Positions 2,790-13,475 of a stretch of 64,000 nt of DNA are shown one piece after another (position 1 is the first letter of the stretch; each line of letters begins with the position of its first letter). The stretch comes from Arenimonas caeni. Lineage in GTDB: Bacteria; Pseudomonadota; Gammaproteobacteria; Xanthomonadales; Xanthomonadaceae. The notes under the pieces are model-generated. The model had not been told where the DNA came from. It saw only the letters and a list, made by a program, of their open reading frames with translations, and did not search any database. The position numbers and the translations under genes are program-made. The stretch lies in NCBI RefSeq assembly GCF_003024235.1, contig NZ_KZ679090.1:62001-126000 (forward strand), read 5' to 3'.

Positions 2790-3566
2790 ATGGCCAGCTT
2801 TCACTTCGAAATCAAGTCAGGAAAAAAGGGGCGTGCCACTGGGCACGCGGATTACATCACTAGGCAAGGTGTCCACAGGAAGCACGGCGACCTGCTGTTC
2901 TCCGGCAGCGGGAACATGCCCTCGTTCGCACAGGACAGTCCGAAATCGTTCTGGCCGCCAGCGGATCGGTTTGAGCGCGCCAATGCCGCGGTTTACAGGG
3001 AGTACATCATCGCCTTGCCGCGAGGCTTGACGGTGGATCAGCTGCGCGCTTTGGTGGACGACATGATCCCAGGGTTGGTAGGGGATAGGCCGTACCAGTA
3101 CGCATTGCACTCGCCAGAGTCATCGATTGACGGCGGAGAGAACCCGCACCTCCACCTGATGTACTCGGATCGTGCTCCGGACGGCATTGATCGTTCACCG
3201 CAGCAGTACTTTGCAAGATACAACCCTGATCACCCAGAGAAGGGGGGTTGCAAGAAGCTGAGCGGTGGACGTAATCGAATACAGCTTCGTGACGAGGTGA
3301 TCGCGAAGCGTCGCCATGTGGCAAACGTCCAGAACGCGCATCTGGCGCTTAATGGAAGGAGTGACTTCGTGGACCACCGATCCCTGCAAGAGCAGGGGGT
3401 GGACCGAGCCCCGGAGCGCCACCTTGGGCCGGCCAGGATCAGCGGTATGTCAGAGGACGATGTGCGGCAGCTCAGGGAGGCTCGGGTGAGCCGGGAGACG
3501 CCGGACCCCTCGGCCACTTCCGGCCTCGGGTTGACGCTGGGGGATTGCGTAACGACATCCGGATGA
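2790..3566 (+). CDS. Short MobA/MobL-type relaxase
   Basis: A 258-residue protein with the features of MobA/MobL (MOBQ-like) relaxases. The N-terminal strand (FHFEIKSGKKG) is followed by HADYITR with Tyr22 as a candidate nucleophile. The metal-binding ENPHLHLMYSDR (H120, H122) and the downstream DGIDRSP, YNPDHPEKGG and LSGGRNRIQLRD segments follow. The C-terminal DHRSLQEQGVDR-x-PERHLGP block is also typical. It ends soon after this block, so no primase or helicase extension is present. It would nick oriT and pilot the element's DNA through a helper conjugation system, since no type IV secretion genes are visible here. ATG 2790 has a weak AAAGGG upstream. Confidence 0.75.
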   Translation: MASFHFEIKSGKKGRATGHADYITRQGVHRKHGDLLFSGSGNMPSFAQDSPKSFWPPADRFERANAAVYREYIIALPRGLTVDQLRALVDDMIPGLVGDRPYQYALHSPESSIDGGENPHLHLMYSDRAPDGIDRSPQQYFARYNPDHPEKGGCKKLSGGRNRIQLRDEVIAKRRHVANVQNAHLALNGRSDFVDHRSLQEQGVDRAPERHLGPARISGMSEDDVRQLREARVSRETPDPSATSGLGLTLGDCVTTSG

Positions 3567-3633: not shown

Positions 3634-4950
3634 TCAGACGCCGGGGTAAACCGGGCGCAATGACCTAAGGACGATGTGCTCGCCGCCTCCCGACCTAACC
3701 CTCTGGATTCGCCCTTGGGCCTCCAGCACGTCCAACAGCGGCTCATACACCCTCGGGTCGCGCAGCGAGTTCGGGCCTACCTGGCCAATCAGGCTCTTCG
3801 GAAAGCGGCCCGTGGTGGGCGGCACGGCGTTTCGAAAACGGCGGTCAATCCAGCCGTTCAGCAGCTCGACTCTAGAGATCATGCTTCCCTCCGAGCCGAG
3901 GTTTGCCATGTAGTGCCAGGAGAACATCTCCACCAGAACGATGGCGGCCCAGAATGTCGAGGGGCTGACTGGACCTTGGAAGCCCTCGAACACGTGCAGC
4001 AGCACGGCGATCCGTACGGCGTTCTCCGCAAGCTTGAGGGCATGCTCCGGCTCGGATTCGAAGTGCCCATGTTCGTACGTCAGCTGGATCCGGCCCTTAG
4101 CGTACGACACCCGCAGTTCCTCCGCCTCGGCGCTCAGGGGCGGAGCCAGGCGCTCAAAGTCCTCCGTGTCTGCCGCCCAGATGCCTTTCTCCAGCAGGGA
4201 GATAAGGCGGGCCATGAATGCGGCCTTCTCCGGTAACGAACCCTGCACCCCGCGAACCAGATCCTCCGAGGGGGTGGGTGGCGTCGCCACCACGAGGAAC
4301 CGGGCTAGAAAGCCTGACGTCTTCAAGGCGCGTCCGTAACGGCTCATCACCTCATCAAGCAGCCCTGGGTGGATCAGGGCCAGGGTCGTCAGGCGCGCGT
4401 TCCGAAGCGACACGTTGCCATGCTTGATGGTGCTGCTCCTGATGGGTTCGCCAGACCACGCGTTATTGAGCGCGCTGGAATCTCTTCTCAAGACGCTCTC
4501 CATCAACTGCTTTGCCTCGTAGGAGAGCAGGAAACTAGTGGGAAGTGCCTTCATCGACTGGTACAAGGCAGCGGGCGTTACCTTGTTGAAGATGAACGCT
4601 CGCCCCCGGAAGAGGTCCGTTCGTGACGCCTCGAAGTCTTCGATCGCCTTTAGGAAGTACTCGGCGAAGGAGGATTTTCCTCCCGACGAGTTGCCAACCC
4701 CCAGCATGTACAGCGAGACCGGTCGACGACCTTGGGGGGTCACCATGTCGACCTGGCTCTGCAGGGCAACCGACAGCGCGCCAAGTGCACTGAAGTAGCC
4801 TAGCTCCATCGGCCACCGTGTCGCGGCGTGAAACTCAGTGACTGCGGCTTGGAAAAGAGGCAAAGGCAGGCGGCCCGGCTCCACCGGCAGGTTGTTCGGT
4901 CCTGTGAACAGGAAGGATCTCGGAGGGTCTCTAAACTTGGGGTTGATCAT
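3634..4950 (-). CDS. DUF3987-like P-loop protein of a mobile element
   Basis: A 438-residue protein. A P-loop-like GVGNSSGGKSS lies about residues 85-95 and is followed by AEYFLKAIEDFE. Later segments (LLSYEAKQLMESV, RNARLTTLALIHPGLLDEVM) resemble the DUF3987 family, ATPase-like proteins found next to primases or replicating in place of them on plasmids and integrative elements. A C-terminal winged-helix-like part (RVYEPLLDVLEAQGRI) closes it. It overlaps the upstream gene by 4 nt (ATGA-type), so it is translationally coupled. Probable role in element replication or maintenance; family assignment is by motif reading only. Confidence 0.6.
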   Translation of the reverse strand: MINPKFRDPPRSFLFTGPNNLPVEPGRLPLPLFQAAVTEFHAATRWPMELGYFSALGALSVALQSQVDMVTPQGRRPVSLYMLGVGNSSGGKSSFAEYFLKAIEDFEASRTDLFRGRAFIFNKVTPAALYQSMKALPTSFLLSYEAKQLMESVLRRDSSALNNAWSGEPIRSSTIKHGNVSLRNARLTTLALIHPGLLDEVMSRYGRALKTSGFLARFLVVATPPTPSEDLVRGVQGSLPEKAAFMARLISLLEKGIWAADTEDFERLAPPLSAEAEELRVSYAKGRIQLTYEHGHFESEPEHALKLAENAVRIAVLLHVFEGFQGPVSPSTFWAAIVLVEMFSWHYMANLGSEGSMISRVELLNGWIDRRFRNAVPPTTGRFPKSLIGQVGPNSLRDPRVYEPLLDVLEAQGRIQRVRSGGGEHIVLRSLRPVYPGV

Positions 4951-5383: not shown

Positions 5384-5704
5384 TTAGGCGACGGCCCGGG
5401 CAAGGGACTTCGCCTCGAGGTAGGCGATGACCTCCCAGGCCCACCAGACCGACGGAGAGCGACGGGACTTGCCCAACTTGAACGGCCTCGGAGCTTCCGG
5501 ATCGAAGCTGGGGTCGTTCGGGTTCAGCCGGGCGTACCACGCGCTGCGGCTCAGTCCCGACAGGTAAAGGACCTCAGGCAAGCGAAGGCCCCGGCGAAGG
5601 CTCAGGTCGCTAATCGAGGACAGGTGCGCGACGGGACCAGCGGACTCCTTGCGGGCTTCCGAGAGTCGGCTGTGGGACGCATTGGAAATGTTCGTGGTGA
5701 TCAT
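5384..5704 (-). CDS. AlpA-family DNA-binding regulator / excisionase-like
   Basis: A 106-residue protein. The C-terminal two thirds match the AlpA/MerR-like winged-helix fold: LRLPEVLYLSGLSRSAWYARL, then a basic wing (FKLGKSRRSPSVWWAWEV) and the closing helix AYLEAKS. AlpA proteins act as regulators or excisionases for integrated elements. The start at 5704 follows AAAGGAAAGCAC. It is the first gene of a leftward operon with the unknown protein and the DUF3987-like gene, with a 12-nt gap to the next. Confidence 0.8.
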   Translation of the reverse strand: MITTNISNASHSRLSEARKESAGPVAHLSSISDLSLRRGLRLPEVLYLSGLSRSAWYARLNPNDPSFDPEAPRPFKLGKSRRSPSVWWAWEVIAYLEAKSLARAVA

Positions 5705-5829: not shown

Positions 5830-6774
5830 TCAAGAGTCTGGCTCGGGATCCGCCTTGGAGACGCGAGTCGTCAGCGTAAAGCCATCGGCACGCACACTGA
5901 TGATCTCCAATGAGGGCGCAGCGCTAGGCTCCGGACCTTCAGGCTCACCGGGGTGATGCGCTTTCGGGAGTGGTTCGGCCCGATCTTTGCCCGCCTTGCG
6001 CTGGCTGAATTGTGCGAACCGTCGCGAGATCTCGGGGTACGGCCCGTTGGGCAGAGCCCAGTCGCGCGTCAAGGCTTCGATGCGCTGCAGGGCTTGGAAC
6101 CGCCGTTCACTATTTGGCAAAGCTTTGTCGATCTTCGCCTTGTCTGCATACTCGAATAGAAACTCCTCTATCTCTCCTTCCTTGTCACATATCCGCTGGT
6201 AAACCATCTCTCGCGCCTCGGCGATGCTTCTTGGGTTCCGATTCTTTGCGACCCAATCAAGTGCGCCGAGAACCATGCCGCGTGCAACCTCCGTCACTTC
6301 AGCATTCTTCTCGGCGCGCTTTCGCGCTTGGGCCATTAGCTCGGATTCCGTCGAGTTCAATCCAAGGTGGTAGTAAGCAATGGCAATCAAGTGCCATGCT
6401 CGATCCGGGATCGGCGACGTCAATGAACGCTCGGCCTCTTGAAGGTAGATTGCCGAGATCAATAGCCCTTTGAAGGGAAAGGACGATGAATCCTTCCAGC
6501 CGCGGGGGATTGTGCTGCCCATGATGATGGAGACACGCAAGTGTTCGGCCCACGAGAGAGCTGGCGACGGCTCCTGCAAATCAAGCAGCTCCTTCGCGAG
6601 GTCCCACAGCTCGGGTACATCGTAGTCCATAGCGCATTGATCCCAGAGTGCCATCGCGCTACCGATGAGCGTTTCTGGATCAACCGCTCGTTGGCCTAGC
6701 TGCTCGTAGATAAAGTACGACGCGGGCTCATCGACACGCTTGCCTTCTGTGATGCTCAAATCTCTTGTCTCCAA
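5830..6774 (-). CDS. Unrecognised cytoplasmic protein, 314 residues
   Basis: The product is mostly helical in appearance (LWDLAKELLDLQ, AWHLIAIAYYHLGL, repeated Ala/Glu-rich stretches), reminiscent of TPR-like repeats, with no signal peptide or membrane segment. The C-terminal 60 residues are rich in P, E and K and are probably disordered. It sits upstream of and in the same orientation as the AlpA operon, with a 125-nt gap. Codon use is closer to the AT-richer neighbours than to the chromosome. No family recognised. Confidence 0.55.
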   Translation of the reverse strand: METRDLSITEGKRVDEPASYFIYEQLGQRAVDPETLIGSAMALWDQCAMDYDVPELWDLAKELLDLQEPSPALSWAEHLRVSIIMGSTIPRGWKDSSSFPFKGLLISAIYLQEAERSLTSPIPDRAWHLIAIAYYHLGLNSTESELMAQARKRAEKNAEVTEVARGMVLGALDWVAKNRNPRSIAEAREMVYQRICDKEGEIEEFLFEYADKAKIDKALPNSERRFQALQRIEALTRDWALPNGPYPEISRRFAQFSQRKAGKDRAEPLPKAHHPGEPEGPEPSAAPSLEIISVRADGFTLTTRVSKADPEPDS

Positions 6775-7849
6775 GGGTTCGATTACGCAGCAAGAATAAT
6801 GGCGTCTTGTACTTGGCCAGCACTCAGCAGGCTAATTAAGCTACTGGAAAATAGGTCCGAGTAACCGAGTTGAATCAAAGAAATGCTCTTCGTGTAGCAA
6901 GGAGTAGATTGTGGGCGATTGAGCGAATTCTCTGAGCAATAATAAACGACGCACCTTCTGATTCACGCCCCACGCGCAATTGAATAGCGATACCGATACC
7001 GTCTCAACTTCAATTCATCCCCTATCGTCGAAATGACCGGCATGAGGCCCGGACTATACGGCTGCGAAATGACCTGGACTCAGGATGGGCCGGGAGCTCA
7101 GGTGTTTGCGGAGACATCCGAATCCATCCGCATCACCTGCATTATTTGCCAGCGGTCGCTGAAGCAGCAGTCCGCCATTGCCTTCGCCCCTTTCTATGGC
7201 CGAGGGTGGTCGCCTCTTCTCGACGGGATAAAAACCTCAGCTCTTCAAATGCGACTTCTAGCAGGAAATTCCGAGTGCTCAATGGTGTGCACGGTGACTT
7301 CAGTGGCTACCGCGGCCACAGAATCCGGCACCTGGTAGCGAATGGCGGTCTCATTGGAAGATCCAAAATTCCTAGAGGCTTGGTGCGGCAAAGCCGCAAT
7401 TGCGTGGCTCCCAGTGACGCGGCACTCAGGTGCCTGCCCGGATACGCCGAGCAGTTAAGCGCTGGAGGGAGCTTGGGGCGCCCCTGGAAACTGGCTGCGC
7501 ATGCGGCTGGCACTGTCGACTGCTTGTAGGAGAGCGACTGGTTGGTACCTTCCTGACCTTAATGCCCTGATCCCTAATCGTCTCGTTGGCAGGCATTCAA
7601 GCGACTTAGGCGCTCTCAGGAGCATTGGATATCCCTCTACGCTCCCGTTCTTGCGCGAGACGCCCGCGACATTGCTCGACCCAGCCAAAAACAGGGAGTG
7701 GTCAAGGGAGCTTCATCACGTTCGACTGGTGCAGGCCGGATTGATCGGGTCCTTATGCAAGTGGTACCCTCGACCGCGGCGTATGCCGCGCTACGTGCTC
7801 AGGGCGAAGAAAGGTGTGCGGCAATTGCCATGGCAAGCGAGGGGCTCAC
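6775..7849. other. 1.07-kb stretch without a supported gene
   Basis: This AT-richer stretch separates the mobilisation genes from the methyltransferase gene. Open frames at 7033-7338 and 7501-7875 exist but have no convincing Shine-Dalgarno, no recognisable domain and poor codon structure. No tRNA, array or long inverted repeat was seen. It may hold the promoter of the methyltransferase gene or degraded mobile-element sequence. Confidence 0.5.
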
Positions 7850-9022
7850 ATGAAGAAGAAGGGTGGTCGCAGTAGTTCGAAGGAAGGCCAAACAAAGACA
7901 CATGCCGCCACTGCGATCGACATCGCGTGTGTCGATTTGTTTTGCGGAGCCGGTGGACTGACACGAGGTCTCATAGACGCAGGCATTCGAGTCGTGGCGG
8001 GCGCTGACCTTGATACTGCTTGTAAACATCCGTTTGAGACCAACAATGGGAGTGCTTTCTACGCCATTGATGTGACGAGCCTAAATGCGTCGGACTTGGC
8101 CTCTTGGTTCGGCGATGCCCAGGTACGCATGTTGGCTGGCTGCGCGCCGTGCCAGCCTTTCTCAAGCTACTCGCAACGCTACGAAACCGTCGGTACCGAG
8201 CGCTGGGGATTGCTTAACCAGTTTGCGCGCTTGGTGCGGGAATCAAGGCCCGATATTGTGACGATGGAGAACGTTCCGACCGTGACCAAGCACTCGGTGT
8301 TTGGAGATTTTGTATCCACGCTGAAAGTTCAGGGATACGAGGTCTGGTTCGATGTAATTGACTGCGCTGATTATGGTCTCCCCCAGCGTCGGCGTCGTAC
8401 CGTTCTAATTGCTTCGCGATTTGGCGAAATTAAACTTACCCCCCCATCAAATGTGCCAAAGAGAACTGTCGCGGATGCGCTCAAGGGGCTTCCGGTGCTT
8501 CGTCATGGAATGGCCAACAGCAAGGACCCGTTGCATGCAGCTTCAGGGCTGTCAGAGCTTAATTACGAGAGGATCAGGGTCTCAAAGCCGGGCGGTACTT
8601 GGCGTGATTGGCCAAAAGACTTGGTCGCCGACTGCCATAGGAGGGAATCCGGCAAAACGTACTCAGGTGTCTATGGCCGTATGAGGTGGGATGAGCCAGC
8701 GCCGACGCTGACCACGCAGTTCTTCGGCTTTGGAAACGGGAGGTTCGGTCATCCATCGCAGGCTCGTGGTCTATCATTGCGCGAAGGGGCAATTCTTCAA
8801 GGCTTCCCCAAGGACTATTCCTTTGTGCCTGAGGGCGCCAGCATTCAATTCAAGGTGCTTGGCCGCTTAATTGGTAATGCTGTCCCAGTTGATCTTGGGC
8901 GAGTTATTGGCGAAGCCGTCGTTGCGCACGTCCACAAGCACGCCTGCAAAAAGTCTTCGAGAGTGAGTGGCCAGTGTGAGCAAAGTGGCGATGTTCGGCC
9001 GTTAGGGGTTGTCAGTGCCTGA
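7850..9022 (+). CDS. DNA (cytosine-5) methyltransferase
   Basis: A 390-residue m5C methyltransferase with motifs in the usual order: motif I DLFCGAGGLTRG (29-40), motif II acidic (GADLD, 51-55), motif IV GCAPCQPFSSYS with catalytic Cys101, motif VI ENV (140-142), motif VIII YGLPQRRRR (175-183), and motifs IX-X including APTLTTQ, LQGFP and LIGNAVP. The target-recognition region between motifs VIII and IX is short. ATG 7850 is preferred over the 36-nt longer frame because AGGGG precedes it. Codon use is AT-richer than the chromosomal genes. As first gene of a cassette with a GHKL ATPase and an HNH protein, it probably protects self DNA. Confidence 0.93.
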   Translation: MKKKGGRSSSKEGQTKTHAATAIDIACVDLFCGAGGLTRGLIDAGIRVVAGADLDTACKHPFETNNGSAFYAIDVTSLNASDLASWFGDAQVRMLAGCAPCQPFSSYSQRYETVGTERWGLLNQFARLVRESRPDIVTMENVPTVTKHSVFGDFVSTLKVQGYEVWFDVIDCADYGLPQRRRRTVLIASRFGEIKLTPPSNVPKRTVADALKGLPVLRHGMANSKDPLHAASGLSELNYERIRVSKPGGTWRDWPKDLVADCHRRESGKTYSGVYGRMRWDEPAPTLTTQFFGFGNGRFGHPSQARGLSLREGAILQGFPKDYSFVPEGASIQFKVLGRLIGNAVPVDLGRVIGEAVVAHVHKHACKKSSRVSGQCEQSGDVRPLGVVSA

Positions 9023-9579
9023 CGTGCGTTGCCATATCCGGTAGGCGATGTCAGCGCCACGGCAAGGTGCTGGAGCCAGCACTATGCGCGAGGGCGTTGC
9101 TTCCGAGATTGTGCGGCGATTCGAGGTGCGCCAGCTGGTCGTCGTAGAGAATTTGTTTCAAGGGGTCAGCAGAGCGCCGTCAGGTCAGTCCGTTTCGCTT
9201 GCGAAATGATTGGCGCAGAGTGTTGAGCGGTGTCGCGCGGCGCGTCTTGGGAGTAGGGAGTGCGCTCTTGGCATGGCTAGCCGTCGGCAAGGAAGCTTGA
9301 ATGCAGTTGGCATGAGGGCTCTTCTCGGCCGCAAAGGTGCGCAGCGCTATCAAGACGCAACAAGAGAAGTTGTCAGTGTTGCTGCCGCACCAGTCGGTAT
9401 CGAGGGCGCGATGATGAAGCTGCAAGATGCTGGCCGTAATGTCAGGTAGGCTGCGTATACAGTAGGGGCTGGGTCAGTCAGCTTGGGCAGGCCAGCCTCT
9501 GTTGATTCGTCTCTGCCGATGAACGCCTTAGCGCAGCTGCCGCCCAGGAAGAGAATGCCGAAGCAAGGAGGAGCTAGCT
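9023..9579. other. 557-bp gap inside the candidate defence cassette
   Basis: No supported gene lies between the methyltransferase and the ATPase genes. A short open frame at 9210-9449 lacks a ribosome-binding site and any family resemblance. No Vsr-type endonuclease, which often follows Dcm genes, can be read in any frame. The end of the stretch carries the strong Shine-Dalgarno of the ATPase gene (AAGGAGGAG, near 9566-9574). Confidence 0.45.
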
Positions 9580-11001
9580 ATGAAGCTCAGCAATGACACC
9601 GCGAAAGCCGTCCCAACCAAGCAGTTCTTTGTGTCAATGCTGACTCGAGACATAAGTCTTGATGACGCAATTCTCGACCTAATCGACAACTGCCTGGATG
9701 GTGCAATGCGTCTTGCCAATGGCGGAGACGTCGACTACGGGAAGCATCACGTCAAAATAAAGCTTTCCAAGGATCTATTCTCGATTGAGGATAATTGCGG
9801 CGGCATCCCTCGCGAAGTGGCCATCAACTACGCATTCAAGATGGGGCGCGATGCCGACGATAAGCGCGATGCCGACACTGAGACAATCGGAATGTACGGC
9901 GTCGGAATGAAGCGTGCTCTCTTCAAAATGGGGACTGACGCGCTTGTGAAGACGCGGCATGGAGAGGACACATTCGAGGTTCATATCGACTCGAATTGGC
10001 TAAGTGATAAGGAGTGGCGAGAGCTTCCGATCAAGGTGCCTAGCAAGGCTGCTGAAATGCTCGACTATCCAGGCACCTCAATTGTAGTCAAGGATCTGTA
10101 TCCGGGTGTTGCTAAGCACTTCGCAAATGCGGCTTTCATTAATGACGTGGAGACTGCGATCTCTCATCATTTCACCATGTTTTTGCAGCGTGGACTTAGG
10201 ATCGAGCTCAATGGTAGATCGGTGAAGCCGGTTCGCGTGGAGGTGCTCGTTTCGAGGCGAAAGGATGGTCCTGCGCCATACGTCTATCAAAAGACGATTG
10301 ATGGTGTGCTTGTTTCCATAACTGTCGGCCTAAATACCAGCCGTCAGTATGAGGGCGATTCCGACCACGACGAGGTTGGTGACTTTGCAGGCCAGCGTAA
10401 TTCTGCGACTGCCGGTTGGACCGTTCTTTGTAATGACCGCGCTGTAATAGTGGGAGACAAAAGTCGTCTGACGGGCTGGGGTGACGGAATACCGCTCTAC
10501 CATGACCAATTCATAGTCATCACGGGCATCATCGAGTTTCGCGCAAAAGACGCGAAGAAATTGCCTGTGACAACGACAAAGCGCGCGCTGGACACATCGT
10601 CAGATGTCTGGCTTGAGTCTCTGGTCAAGATGAAAGAAGGAATGCGCGTTTGGATCTCCTACACGAATCAGTGGAAGAACCATCCGCGAGAAGATCAATC
10701 CGTTTACTGGTCGGATGCAAAGCCGATGTCACTTAGTCAGGCGATTGAGGCGGTATCTCCGCGCGCCACTAAGAGGAGGGGAAGCGTTGCGCTTGAGTTT
10801 GACCCTCGAAAGATGAAGGGTGTGCTTCCTGAGCCAAAGGAGAGCGCTCCTTCTGGGCGTCGGATCGTCTTCTCTCGACCCGCTGAGGAGGTGCGGCTGG
10901 TTTCGAAGATGCTCTTCGATGATGCAAACGAGAAGCCCGGAATCGTCGGAGACAAATGTTTCGAGATTCAGCTCGTGAAGGCTAGCAGGGTGGAGCGCTG
11001 A
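9580..11001 (+). CDS. GHKL ATPase of MORC/MutL-like type
   Basis: A 473-residue protein with an N-terminal GHKL ATP-binding domain. The N-box is D33-LIDN37-CLDGA (Asp in place of the usual Glu, Mg-binding Asn37 present), motif G1 is D71-NCGG, and G2 is GMYGVGMKRA (104-113). After it comes an S5-like segment ending in LPVTTTKRALDT, where the Lys would contact ATP as in MutL and MORC. The last 110 residues are not recognised. AAGGAGGAGCTAGCT gives a strong start. Iyer, Abhiman and Aravind described MORC-like GHKL ATPases linked to restriction-modification genes, and this fits that class by context. The next gene starts 3 nt after its stop. Confidence 0.85.
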   Translation: MKLSNDTAKAVPTKQFFVSMLTRDISLDDAILDLIDNCLDGAMRLANGGDVDYGKHHVKIKLSKDLFSIEDNCGGIPREVAINYAFKMGRDADDKRDADTETIGMYGVGMKRALFKMGTDALVKTRHGEDTFEVHIDSNWLSDKEWRELPIKVPSKAAEMLDYPGTSIVVKDLYPGVAKHFANAAFINDVETAISHHFTMFLQRGLRIELNGRSVKPVRVEVLVSRRKDGPAPYVYQKTIDGVLVSITVGLNTSRQYEGDSDHDEVGDFAGQRNSATAGWTVLCNDRAVIVGDKSRLTGWGDGIPLYHDQFIVITGIIEFRAKDAKKLPVTTTKRALDTSSDVWLESLVKMKEGMRVWISYTNQWKNHPREDQSVYWSDAKPMSLSQAIEAVSPRATKRRGSVALEFDPRKMKGVLPEPKESAPSGRRIVFSRPAEEVRLVSKMLFDDANEKPGIVGDKCFEIQLVKASRVER

Positions 11002-11004
11002 GGA

Positions 11005-12045
11005 ATGAGCGGCTCTTCATTGCCATATAAGCTTCGTCCAAACAAAGCTGTCGATCGAGAGCTGTTTCTCTCTCTTCTGATGCGATTGGCTCCAAAACTG
11101 GGCCTTGAGAAATACCATTACGTGAGTCTGGGCGGCCCCTTCTTAGAAGACTTTCGGCTCGTTCATTCACGGGTTGGCATCGGCCGCAAGAGGAATGGTC
11201 GCACGGTTGGCAGACTCACCTGCGTTGAGTCTGAGCTGGAGATTCATAAGAGGCAAAAGTTCAATCGACCGTTGGCCGCGATAAGATGCGTCCACTCCAC
11301 TCTCGAAAAGTTCCTAGATCAGACGACCTTCGCGACTCCGGCAATTATTTGGTTTGACTATACGGCGCCTAAAGACATTGCGTCTCAGATTCAGCGGTTC
11401 GCGGCGACCGTAGGTACAGTGCCAGTCGGAAGTGTCTTGCGAGTAACGCTGAATGGAAATCCGACGTCGCTTGGTAGTGGCGGAGAAGAGCCGTCTGGGA
11501 AGGATCTTTCCGTCGAGGTTGATGGAGAGGTGTCATCCGATCGCGCGCAGAAGCCGACGAAGGCCGAGTGGCGTCTGGAAGAGTTCAGGCAGCGATTGGG
11601 CGCGCTCGTGCCTGCCGGAATTGCTCCGGAAGCGATGACGCACAAGAAGTATGGCCCAACGCTGCTTGGAGTGCTGAAGCTTTCAGTCGATAAGCAGGCG
11701 CTAAGTTTCTCAGATCGCCAAGTCGTCTGGGCCCTGGCAACGCATTATGCCGACGAACAGCCCATGGTGACTGCGGCGCTTGTCGTAGCTCCGAAAGGAG
11801 ATTCGGATCTTGAGAAGTTGGTCCGAGGATGGGAGTTCTTTTCGAAGCCGGAAGATCCGCATCGAGTTGAGCTTCCGGCGCTTTCTTCGTTGGAGCGACT
11901 GACGTTGGAGTCAAGCAGTTACGCGCACAGAAGGCTCGGTTTCGATCTTGCGAAGGTTGTAGATTCGAAGCTTGGCACTGATCCAGTCGACAGTTTCAGA
12001 AAGTTCTACAGGCTCTATCCGCACTTCTCCAGGGTGGATCTGTAA
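11005..12045 (+). CDS. Unknown cassette protein with Rossmann-methyltransferase-like motifs
   Basis: A 346-residue soluble protein without an obvious name. Residues 36-50 (KYHYVSLGGPFLEDF) look like strand 1 with a glycine loop, 71-77 (LTCVESE) like strand 2 ending in acidic residues, and 114-122 (IIWFDYTAP) like the motif-IV strand of a class-I methyltransferase. The middle (about 150-200) is charged and probably disordered, and a second folded part begins near 200 (RLGALVP) and includes FSDRQVVWALATHYAD. It could be a degenerate or unusual methyltransferase, or a nucleotide-binding partner of the ATPase. It is tightly coupled to the ATPase gene (TGA, 3 nt, ATG with GAGGA), implying 1:1 function. 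Identity is uncertain. Confidence 0.7.
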   Translation: MSGSSLPYKLRPNKAVDRELFLSLLMRLAPKLGLEKYHYVSLGGPFLEDFRLVHSRVGIGRKRNGRTVGRLTCVESELEIHKRQKFNRPLAAIRCVHSTLEKFLDQTTFATPAIIWFDYTAPKDIASQIQRFAATVGTVPVGSVLRVTLNGNPTSLGSGGEEPSGKDLSVEVDGEVSSDRAQKPTKAEWRLEEFRQRLGALVPAGIAPEAMTHKKYGPTLLGVLKLSVDKQALSFSDRQVVWALATHYADEQPMVTAALVVAPKGDSDLEKLVRGWEFFSKPEDPHRVELPALSSLERLTLESSSYAHRRLGFDLAKVVDSKLGTDPVDSFRKFYRLYPHFSRVDL

Positions 12046-12220
12046 GGCTTGGAGAATCTACGCCGAACGACTGCTGCCGAGGCATCTGGCTAGGTTCTGG
12101 ATGCTATATGCATGTGTTTCCCTCATGAATCGCGTTTCGCGAGTGTCGAATCCGTGATGTTTTCTGAGCCGCAGAGCGCGTGGCAGCTGGGGTCGAACAG
12201 GAGGCGTTGGAGGATGAGTA

Positions 12221-12955
12221 ATGGATCAGCTTCGTGACCTCGCGGACAGCAGGCTCTTTCGTGGATGTGCATATTGCGGAGCGCATCCAAGCACACGAGA
12301 TCATGTCCCATCTAAGGTGTTCTTGGATGAGCCCTTTCCGACTGAGCTTCCTGTGGTTGGTGCCTGCAAGGTATGCAACAGTGGATTTTCTCGGGACGAA
12401 GAGTACGTTGCTTGCCTGGTGGAGTGTGCACTTCTTGGTACCGTTAATCCTGCATTGCATCGTCGAGAGAAGATCGCAGGTATTCTTCGGCGCTCTCCTG
12501 CGCTCCGAGCAAAAATGGCTTCTGCTAGGAGCGAAGTGGAGGGTCAGGTTTCCTTCTCCATTGAGCCGGAAAGGGTCCGAAATGTTGTGCTCAAGTTGGC
12601 AAGAGGACACGCCATGTTCGAGCTCAGCTGGTTTTCGGATCAAGATCCGGTGGCGGCTTGGTGGCATCCTATTGCTCTGTTGAGCCCCGAACAGCGGGAA
12701 GAATTTGAGAATGTGCCTGCCCCTCAGTTATGGGGTGAAATTGGGACGAGGGCCAGCCAGCGGGTTGGTGTGATTCAAGCAAAGCTTGTCGGTCCGACTG
12801 GCGAAGAGCGAGTGATCGACCTCTTGATCAACGATTGGCTGGATGTTCAGCAAGGTCGCTATCGCTATTTGGCAACCGATCAGGATGGACTGATTCGGGT
12901 GAGAATGGTTTTGGGGGAGTACTTGGCTTGCGAGGTGGTGTGGGAGCAGTCGTGA
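12221..12955 (+). CDS. HNH-type zinc nuclease-like protein
   Basis: A 244-residue protein whose first 60 residues carry an HNH-type core: C16-x2-C19, D27-H28-V-P in the first strand, and C49-x2-C52-N53. This is the pattern of four-cysteine HNH proteins with a (D/E)HVP motif. The remainder (residues 60-244) has no recognised domain and may recognise DNA or partner proteins. The start follows GGAGGATGAGTA. It lies 175 nt after the preceding cassette gene in the same direction and is the only candidate nuclease beside the methyltransferase, so it is the likely effector. Confidence 0.72.
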   Translation: MDQLRDLADSRLFRGCAYCGAHPSTRDHVPSKVFLDEPFPTELPVVGACKVCNSGFSRDEEYVACLVECALLGTVNPALHRREKIAGILRRSPALRAKMASARSEVEGQVSFSIEPERVRNVVLKLARGHAMFELSWFSDQDPVAAWWHPIALLSPEQREEFENVPAPQLWGEIGTRASQRVGVIQAKLVGPTGEERVIDLLINDWLDVQQGRYRYLATDQDGLIRVRMVLGEYLACEVVWEQS

Positions 12956-13475
12956 CTTGGTGAGTCGTTTCGGGGTCGGCTGTGAGACCAGAAGGGTGAG
13001 TGCTCGCGGTCGTTATGGTGATTGAATTCCGTCGTGCTGCGACGATCCCTCGCGTTTATGCTCTGTGCTCTCAGTTTGTGGTGCATGCGTACTTGGCGAC
13101 GAGAATGGTAGTCCGTTGAGGTCCGCTTAAGTCCACGTTAGCCTCGGCTGGGTGTGAGTCAAAGTGTGAGGCAACTGAGAAGCTCGCATTCGAAAAGACC
13201 AAGTAGGACAATTGGATAGCCTATCTATTTGGGTGCTGGTGGGCCCACAACTACGTTCGACCAAACTCCCCGAATGGTCGAGTCGGTGCCGTGGCTGGAA
13301 GCGGCATCTGACGCAGGTTGACTGCGGTATGGGCCGTATCCGTAGAAGCCCCCGGCAGTCAAATAGGATCTTTCGCGATTGGCCAAGACCTCGCCCGGCC
13401 CGATCGGCTTGTGTCCTGTCGATTCGCCCGAGTTTTGCCGAAGCGTCCCCCGTGGTCCGGTCTCATCCCGGGGCA
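12956..13475. other. Junction between the accessory region and cydC, no gene
   Basis: Base composition changes here from AT-richer to high GC. Three tandem decamers lie at 13111-13140. I looked for a tRNA gene, which would be a usual integration site, and could not fold one. No supported open frame. Confidence 0.5.
13111..13140. repeat. Three tandem 10-bp repeats, possible integrase arm sites
   Basis: The decamers GTCCGTTGAG, GTCCGCTTAA and GTCCACGTTA follow each other without a gap. All start GTCC and share a pyrimidine-rich to TTA/TGA pattern. Short helical-phase repeats near an island edge suggest arm-type sites for a tyrosine integrase or excisionase, but no integrase gene is in this window. 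Confidence 0.35.

Follow-up and report, generated by a model that had tools for sequence, protein, structure and literature searches.

A MORC-type ATPase, a Methyltransf_35 protein and a C5 methyltransferase as a candidate bacterial defence module in Arenimonas caeni

We analysed a 64,000-nucleotide stretch of the Arenimonas caeni genome (contig NZ_KZ679090.1, positions 62,001 to 126,000; hereafter the window), in which an earlier note, made from the sequence alone, had pointed out a four-gene cassette as a possible anti-phage system. Judged from the gene neighbourhoods of related loci, the conserved core of this cassette consists of a C5 cytosine DNA methyltransferase and of a MORC-type ATPase that forms a two-gene unit with a Methyltransf_35 protein (hereafter the partner; the two are called the pair, and all three the trio). 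The fourth gene, which encodes an HNH-type protein, is best seen on the same grounds as an optional nuclease. The three-gene set looks like a widespread bacterial defence module without a name, for which it is a candidate, and we give an even chance to the locus being a MORC-based, modification-linked defence module; among known types it is best filed, by its gene content, as a new variant of MORC-linked restriction-modification (R-M)-type defence. The elements of the cassette are the following (DISARM, defence island system associated with restriction-modification; SAM, S-adenosylmethionine):

7850-9022, forward strand: C5 cytosine DNA methyltransferase, DrmMII-type (PF00145, E = 1.9e-52; alternative GTG start at 7814)
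9023-9579: non-coding gap of 557 bp, at the position of vsr-drmD-drmMI in DISARM relatives
9580-11001, forward strand: prokaryotic MORC-type GHKL ATPase with an S5 domain (PF13589, HATPase_c_3, E = 1.3e-11)
11005-12045, forward strand: Methyltransf_35 partner with a SAM-methyltransferase fold (PF20553, E = 6.6e-76), starting 3 nt past the ATPase stop
12046-12220: spacer, the first 28 nt of which resemble the partner-drmA junction of the Nguyenibacter DISARM locus L018
12221-12955, forward strand: HNH_5-like putative nuclease, an optional neighbour, with GGAGG shortly before its start

All four open reading frames (ORFs) are open, intact and rightward at these coordinates. Their GC content (0.53-0.55, versus 0.676 across the window) and a MobA/MobL gene to their left agree with the earlier description of rightward genes, AT-richer than their surroundings, near mobilisation genes.

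The second gene had been described as a MORC-like GHKL ATPase occurring with R-M-type genes, and both halves of this description are borne out. A MORC signature, GWTVLCNDRAV, occupies residues 279-289 of the window ATPase, in its S5 domain, and a C5 gene accompanies the ATPase in 108 of 118 related loci. According to passages of Iyer, Abhiman and Aravind (2008; PMC2292703), the motif GhXhhpXXRhl in the S5 domain defines the MORC family. The pattern is found in 91 of 93 aligned ATPases (L083 and L070 miss it; L numbers denote loci) and in none of 200 shuffled sequences, and the window ATPase carries this S5-domain motif as well as the combination of GHKL ATP-binding motifs with an S5 fold. N37, D71, G75, G107, G109 and K334 are conserved in all 93 rows. 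The best PDB match of its AlphaFold2 model (predicted local distance difference test, pLDDT, 89.5) is the SMCHD1 ATPase (6mw7, E = 2.9e-13), and further fold matches are HSP90-type, MORC2 and MORC3 ATPases.

The third protein, which had been left as unknown, turned out to be a second protein with a SAM-methyltransferase fold: it matches PF20553 with 256 bits against a cut-off of 27, over residues 1-345 of 346. In a fold search with its AlphaFold2 model (pLDDT 92.8), class I SAM methyltransferases came out on top, with Trm1 (3axs) first (E = 1.1e-6, query TM-score 0.42); the other fold matches listed mostly have query TM-scores near 0.3. We had considered a hidden nuclease in this gene and rejected it, since the fold search returns SAM methyltransferases. 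D118 is invariant in 101 of 101 rows, position 75 is Glu in 97 of them (E75 in the window) and Asp in 4, and none of the 101 rows departs from the N-terminal Y8, R11, K14 and R18. Between the window and L018 the ATPases are 88% and the partners 82% identical, with ratios of nonsynonymous to synonymous substitutions (dN/dS) of 0.034 and 0.050, which are rough values, dS being saturated near 2. On this sequence comparison, both genes are under purifying selection. For the structure alignments, 85 (A7) and 76 (A9) sequences were picked from 101 and 93.

The composition of related loci was surveyed with an alignment of seven ATPases as query, scanning genome contigs and viral contigs. The best 80 of 239 confirmed stretches in genome contigs, 37 loci from viral contigs and a Microvirga locus make up 118 loci, among which L002, L055 (seed L015) and L085 (seed L014) overlap with the seeds; at 95% ATPase identity they collapse to 103 distinct loci. 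One neighbour table lacks the ATPase of L086. The partner is present in 116 of the 118 ATPase-found loci (all except L072 and L093), directly 3' of the ATPase in 115 by a strict rule (L034 has a partner and fails the distance rule), and the C5 gene in 108. The converse search found PF20553 in 5 of 398 Pseudomonadota genomes, that of the window included, with the ATPase adjacent in all five. The neighbourhood survey that the earlier note had called for thus divides its proposal of a four-gene unit: C5, ATPase and partner co-occur widely, while relatives of the HNH gene lie near 7 of 118 pairs and the four-gene order was seen once elsewhere (L124). On the HNH count we rejected the four-gene set as a unit. 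In a Sinorhizobium plasmid (L003:7944-13089), transposase-looking ORFs separate the ATPase gene from a shortened partner gene, in what is apparently a broken copy.

Where the C5 gene lies also fits a link to modification. Of the 78 distinct loci outside DISARM operons, 33 have their nearest C5 gene (counting those of 200 aa or more) in convergent orientation and 32 have it upstream and co-oriented, the arrangement of the window; it has another position in 5, and 8 lack it. The convergent arrangement, opposite the ATPase and partner genes, fits a putative modification unit facing a restriction-like unit.

The trio is also found among phage genes. In a P2-like prophage (L099) it has terminase/portal genes on one side and a gpA-type nickase on the other, a region which we take to be that where P2 carries old and tin; L102 and L108 share gene clusters with it. 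In the lambda-like L100, L110 and L111 the trio stands between O/P or CII genes and NinB or Q genes, and in the Pf phage PfAC20 it makes up ORF1-3. One version of the trio matches 224 of 5,426 complete E. coli genomes, 172 of them over at least 80% of the query, counts which repeated sampling of related strains may inflate; these copies are annotated as ATP-binding protein, O-methyltransferase and DNA cytosine methyltransferase. Protective methyltransferases are common in phages, and this together with the 37 loci from viral contigs would suit a self-protection or gene-regulation module, by which mobile elements guard their own DNA against host restriction or adjust their own expression. We regard this alternative as quite unlikely: the pair also occurs in DISARM operons and bacterial contigs, and protective methylation would presumably need no MORC ATPase.

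A connection of the pair to DISARM had been missed by the earlier note. The closest plasmid match, in Microvirga terrae pR24_2 (L002; ATPase 70.6% and partner 62.9% identical), lies within a class 1 DISARM operon with the order C5, vsr, drmD, MmeI-type drmMI, ATPase, 'O-methyltransferase', drmA, DUF1998 protein (drmB) and drmC. The pair is located within class 1 DISARM in 25 of the 103 distinct loci, and in 24 of these the order is drmMI-ATPase-partner-drmA, the remaining one beginning at a contig end. L057, which had come in through a shared cluster, was rejected as a DISARM locus since it has no drmA, so that the count stands at 25. PADLOC recognises the drm genes of L018 with its Drm models (for the drmD ORF the top model is labelled DrmA and the second DrmD), and the ATPase and partner of this locus match no PADLOC model at 1e-10.

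The window shares the DrmMII-type C5 with these class 1 operons (L002 and L018) and differs from them in having no other drm gene. Many PADLOC models match the window C5, the first being DrmMII (PDLC02651, E = 3.6e-87), and the protein is 60.6% identical to the C5 of L018 and 63.7% to that of L034. No tblastn match to drmA, drmB or drmC was found in the window (best E = 0.28), and none to drmD or drmMI in the window (best E = 1.1) or in the gap (best E = 0.50), these being the regions searched; drmA, which was also sought in the whole genome, is absent from it (best match 27% over 74 residues), drmB and drmC having been sought in the window. The locus was thus rejected as a member of DISARM.

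The independence of the two holds in the other direction as well. A drmA like that of L018 (E <= 1e-50) is present in 10 of the 398 genomes, mostly at 36-47% identity, and none of the ten sampled drmA loci carries the pair in the flanks fetched (one flank spanning 3.4 kb); matches to drmD and drmMI both lie beside drmA in four of the ten. One such locus is L181, whose drmA shares 83% identity with the L018 gene; here drmMI is directly next to drmA, and the pair is not inserted between the two. L181 and L018 are hence closely related class 1 DISARM operons without and with the ATPase-Methyltransf_35 insert. Because the ten sampled loci are without the pair and drmMI abuts drmA in L181, DISARM does not need the pair, as far as gene content tells, and the pair does not need DISARM.

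A more specific question is whether the window locus is a decaying class 1 DISARM remnant, non-working after the loss of vsr, drmD, drmMI, drmA, drmB and drmC. In an ATPase tree built with a quick method, the window sequence is sister to that of L018, a full DISARM locus (support 100), within a set of 27 rows made up of 24 DISARM rows, 2 compact ones and the window; the 557-bp gap stands in place of vsr-drmD-drmMI, and a stretch of 28 nt directly behind the partner gene is similar to the L018 sequence where partner and drmA meet. The score of this 28-nt likeness is equalled by 35 of 5000 shuffles and by 13 of 3887 other 28-mers of the window, and a wider local alignment of the whole spacer with L018 does not rise above shuffles (210 of 500). 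The 28 nt may be a scar, a weak hint of an earlier DISARM context. We nevertheless hold a remnant to be very unlikely. The four ORFs are intact with conserved sites, and the pair is under purifying selection; in addition, the same clade has further C5-ATPase-partner sets that lack drm genes (L042, L043 and L044), each with an ordinary gene beside it (M78/HTH, helix-turn-helix, sulfatase and ThuA genes, respectively; one neighbour was scanned for each, and contig ends truncate some flanks). We looked in the gap for what might be left of vsr, drmD or drmMI and rejected such remnants: blastn of 9023-9579 against 34 loci (E <= 1e-3) gave zero matches except for the last ~15 nt, and Drm or Vsr proteins matched the gap with a best E of 0.50. 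Because the C5 is 61% and the ATPase 88% identical to their L018 counterparts, and because the gap holds no recognisable drm remnant, the locus looks like a mosaic.

The fourth protein had been described as a C4-type HNH protein, of which the motif stands and the family name is uncertain. The pattern CxxC / DH / CxxCN is present, and C16, C19, D27, H28, C49, C52 and N53 are invariant in 11 of 11 aligned sequences of its family (alignment A8). The HNH label is weak because its own Pfam scan is empty and matches to HNH_5 at E <= 10 are found in 8 of the 11 members (best 1.2e-4). Window-type HNH relatives lie near 7 of the 118 ATPase-partner pairs (L018, L019, L039, L063, L073, L097 and L124), L073 being kept in this count and omitted from A8, as its copy has a stop inside the matched range. 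Among the 398 genomes the family is found in 4 at E < 1e-40 (that of the window included) and in 10 at E <= 1e-3. In L063, a C5 gene and a window-type HNH gene lie between two ATPase-partner pairs that face each other, at about 10.0-16.9 kb.

These genes raise the possibility of a plain type II R-M system, in which C5 and HNH would be the cognate pair and the ATPase and Methyltransf_35 proteins accessory. A sequence-specific DNA methyltransferase is indicated, at the family level, by the PF00145 match, and a candidate endonuclease by the adjoining HNH_5-like gene, relatives of which accompany 7 of 118 related pairs. The order C5-ATPase-partner-HNH is seen again in L124, the sole other case found (HNH proteins 54% and ATPases 37% identical), and a window-type HNH also lies beside a C5 gene without the pair, for example in L005 (C5 51% identical to that of the window). 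Within 7 kb of the 78 non-DISARM loci we found vsr in 22, HNH_2-like genes in 5, window-type HNH in 4 and a phage HNH cluster in 5. Here, however, 49 of the 78 loci have none of these four linked nuclease types, the only ones sought, and what stays constant is the ATPase with its partner (116 of 118, the loci having been found through the ATPase), unlike what an accessory role would predict. We thus consider a plain type II system unlikely. When 20 genes flanking prophage copies were scanned against PHROGs, two proved to be HNH genes (L100:3603-4700 and L122:13964-14821), one a phage replication nickase, and four were unmatched; the HNH gene of L100 belongs to a cluster present in 5 distinct loci and lies ~3.8 kb from the ATPase. 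A nuclease may be among the four unmatched genes.

Taken together, we favour a MORC-based, modification-linked defence module because the partner and C5 are so regularly found with the ATPase and the converse PF20553 search led back to it; because the trio travels among phage genes and in E. coli and the pair in class 1 DISARM; because of the C5 placement, the MORC motif, the conserved SAM- and ATP-site residues and the purifying selection; and because HNH lies near 7 of 118 pairs while being present in just 4 of 398 genomes.

Several observations weigh against this reading. None of the nuclease types seen is conserved with the trio, as the 49 loci devoid of all four illustrate. On four plasmids the window-type HNH has other R-M or defence genes as neighbours and no pair, and two further HNH loci (L179 and L180, both of the two fetched) have no pair within about 8 kb; one of these HNH genes adjoins vsr and C5 matches and the other has neither. 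The enrichment of HNH near pairs may therefore merely reflect the clustering of defence genes. C5 was not detected in 10 of the 118 loci, five of them cyanobacterial (L052, L054, L056, L058 and L061), some others being cut by contig ends; the cyanobacterial pairs may have their methyltransferase elsewhere, or none. The pair is missing from all ten sampled drmA loci, and distant relatives are under-sampled, the best 80 of 239 stretches having been kept. In addition, all 93 aligned ATPases have Asp at the place of residue 33, the general-base position in the GHKL N-box. Glu is usual at this catalytic position, and because of the exchange, ATP hydrolysis may be slow or absent.

If the locus does act in defence, we infer, in line with roles suggested earlier for C5 in self-protection, HNH in cutting and the ATPase as a clamp, that the C5 enzyme would methylate the host's own sites as a self mark. 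The ATPase would dimerise upon ATP binding and close as a clamp around incoming unmarked DNA, and the partner, with its SAM-dependent methyltransferase fold and conserved basic N-terminus, would bind together with the ATPase and read or modify the target. In the window locus the HNH_5-like protein would be the likely DNA cutter, a part that the DISARM machinery might take over in DISARM-borne copies. Copies with no recognised linked nuclease could block foreign DNA by clamping or compaction, by methyl transfer through the partner, or with a nuclease encoded elsewhere. A bolder version, which we think unlikely, is a nuclease-free, restriction-like immunity in which C5 marks self, the MORC ATPase entraps or compacts unmarked DNA and the Methyltransf_35 protein is the effector or licensing enzyme. 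If true, bacteria would have their own counterpart of MORC-mediated silencing, able to move alone and as a DISARM add-on; should a nuclease prove unnecessary, the system would represent a new way to reject foreign DNA, with a possible parallel to eukaryotic MORC silencing. In any case, these loci show that DISARM is modular, with an optional insert that travels alone too, and a small, clonable trio in prophages and in E. coli makes the function of prokaryotic MORC proteins directly testable.

That no named defence system was recognised in the cassette agrees with the PADLOC 2.0 models, none of whose families matches the window ATPase, Methyltransf_35 partner or HNH protein at E <= 1. The nearest precedents are the MORC and paraMORC-linked R-M operons, with which the window shares the MORC signature motif and the GHKL and S5 fold. 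Passages of PMC2292703 describe linkage of MORC genes to C5 methylases, Vsr, SNF2 helicases and HNH genes, and, on our reading, the roles given to prokaryotic MORC ATPases are deduced for the most part from neighbouring genes; the passages name no Methyltransf_35 partner, which here is the most constant neighbour (116 of 118). The cargo of PfAC20 has the order ATP-binding protein, hypothetical protein (a Methyltransf_35 relative) and cytosine methyltransferase, and its authors, in the parts of PMC11878078 concerned, list only a cytosine methyltransferase and call the R-M system incomplete. The PfAC20 partner is 24% identical to that of the window and its ATPase 34% to that of L102, with no HNH annotated within 8.5 kb. 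The Shedu protein VcSduA has, according to passages of PMC12137116, a GHKL ATPase proposed to control an anti-phage effector; it differs in having the nuclease fused in one protein and a catalytic Glu (E27), and similar proteins were formerly annotated as paraMORC3. For Methyltransf_35 or PF20553 no paper was found in the literature within reach, which excludes most subscription papers, and in the DISARM, MORC, GHKL and O-methyltransferase literature none was recognised as describing the trio among the matches listed.

With regard to the surroundings, the cassette was not found in 12 sampled relatives within the genus, and of the adjoining ABC (ATP-binding cassette)-transporter region two short fragments matched in them, nothing more. 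An empty-site comparison within the genus was rejected, as this flanking match gave no island borders. Promoter- and terminator-like sites in 7600-13400 are fewer than the shuffle mean. Between the AlpA-like gene described below and the cassette lies an ORF of 314 aa (5830-6774) with zero matches in Pfam, PADLOC and NCBIfam (E <= 1). To the left of the cassette, a Pfam scan identified MobA/MobL, DUF3987 and ISL3 transposase genes, and the elements there are as follows:

1259-2479: ISL3 transposase gene, left of the cassette
2790-3566, forward strand: MobA/MobL relaxase-type gene (PF03389, E = 7.2e-21), mobile-element context
3634-4950, reverse strand: DUF3987 gene (PF13148, E = 2.7e-41), mobile-element context
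5384-5704, reverse strand: AlpA-like regulator (PF05930, E = 0.0011; 19.2 bits, just below the cut-off of 21), mobile-element context

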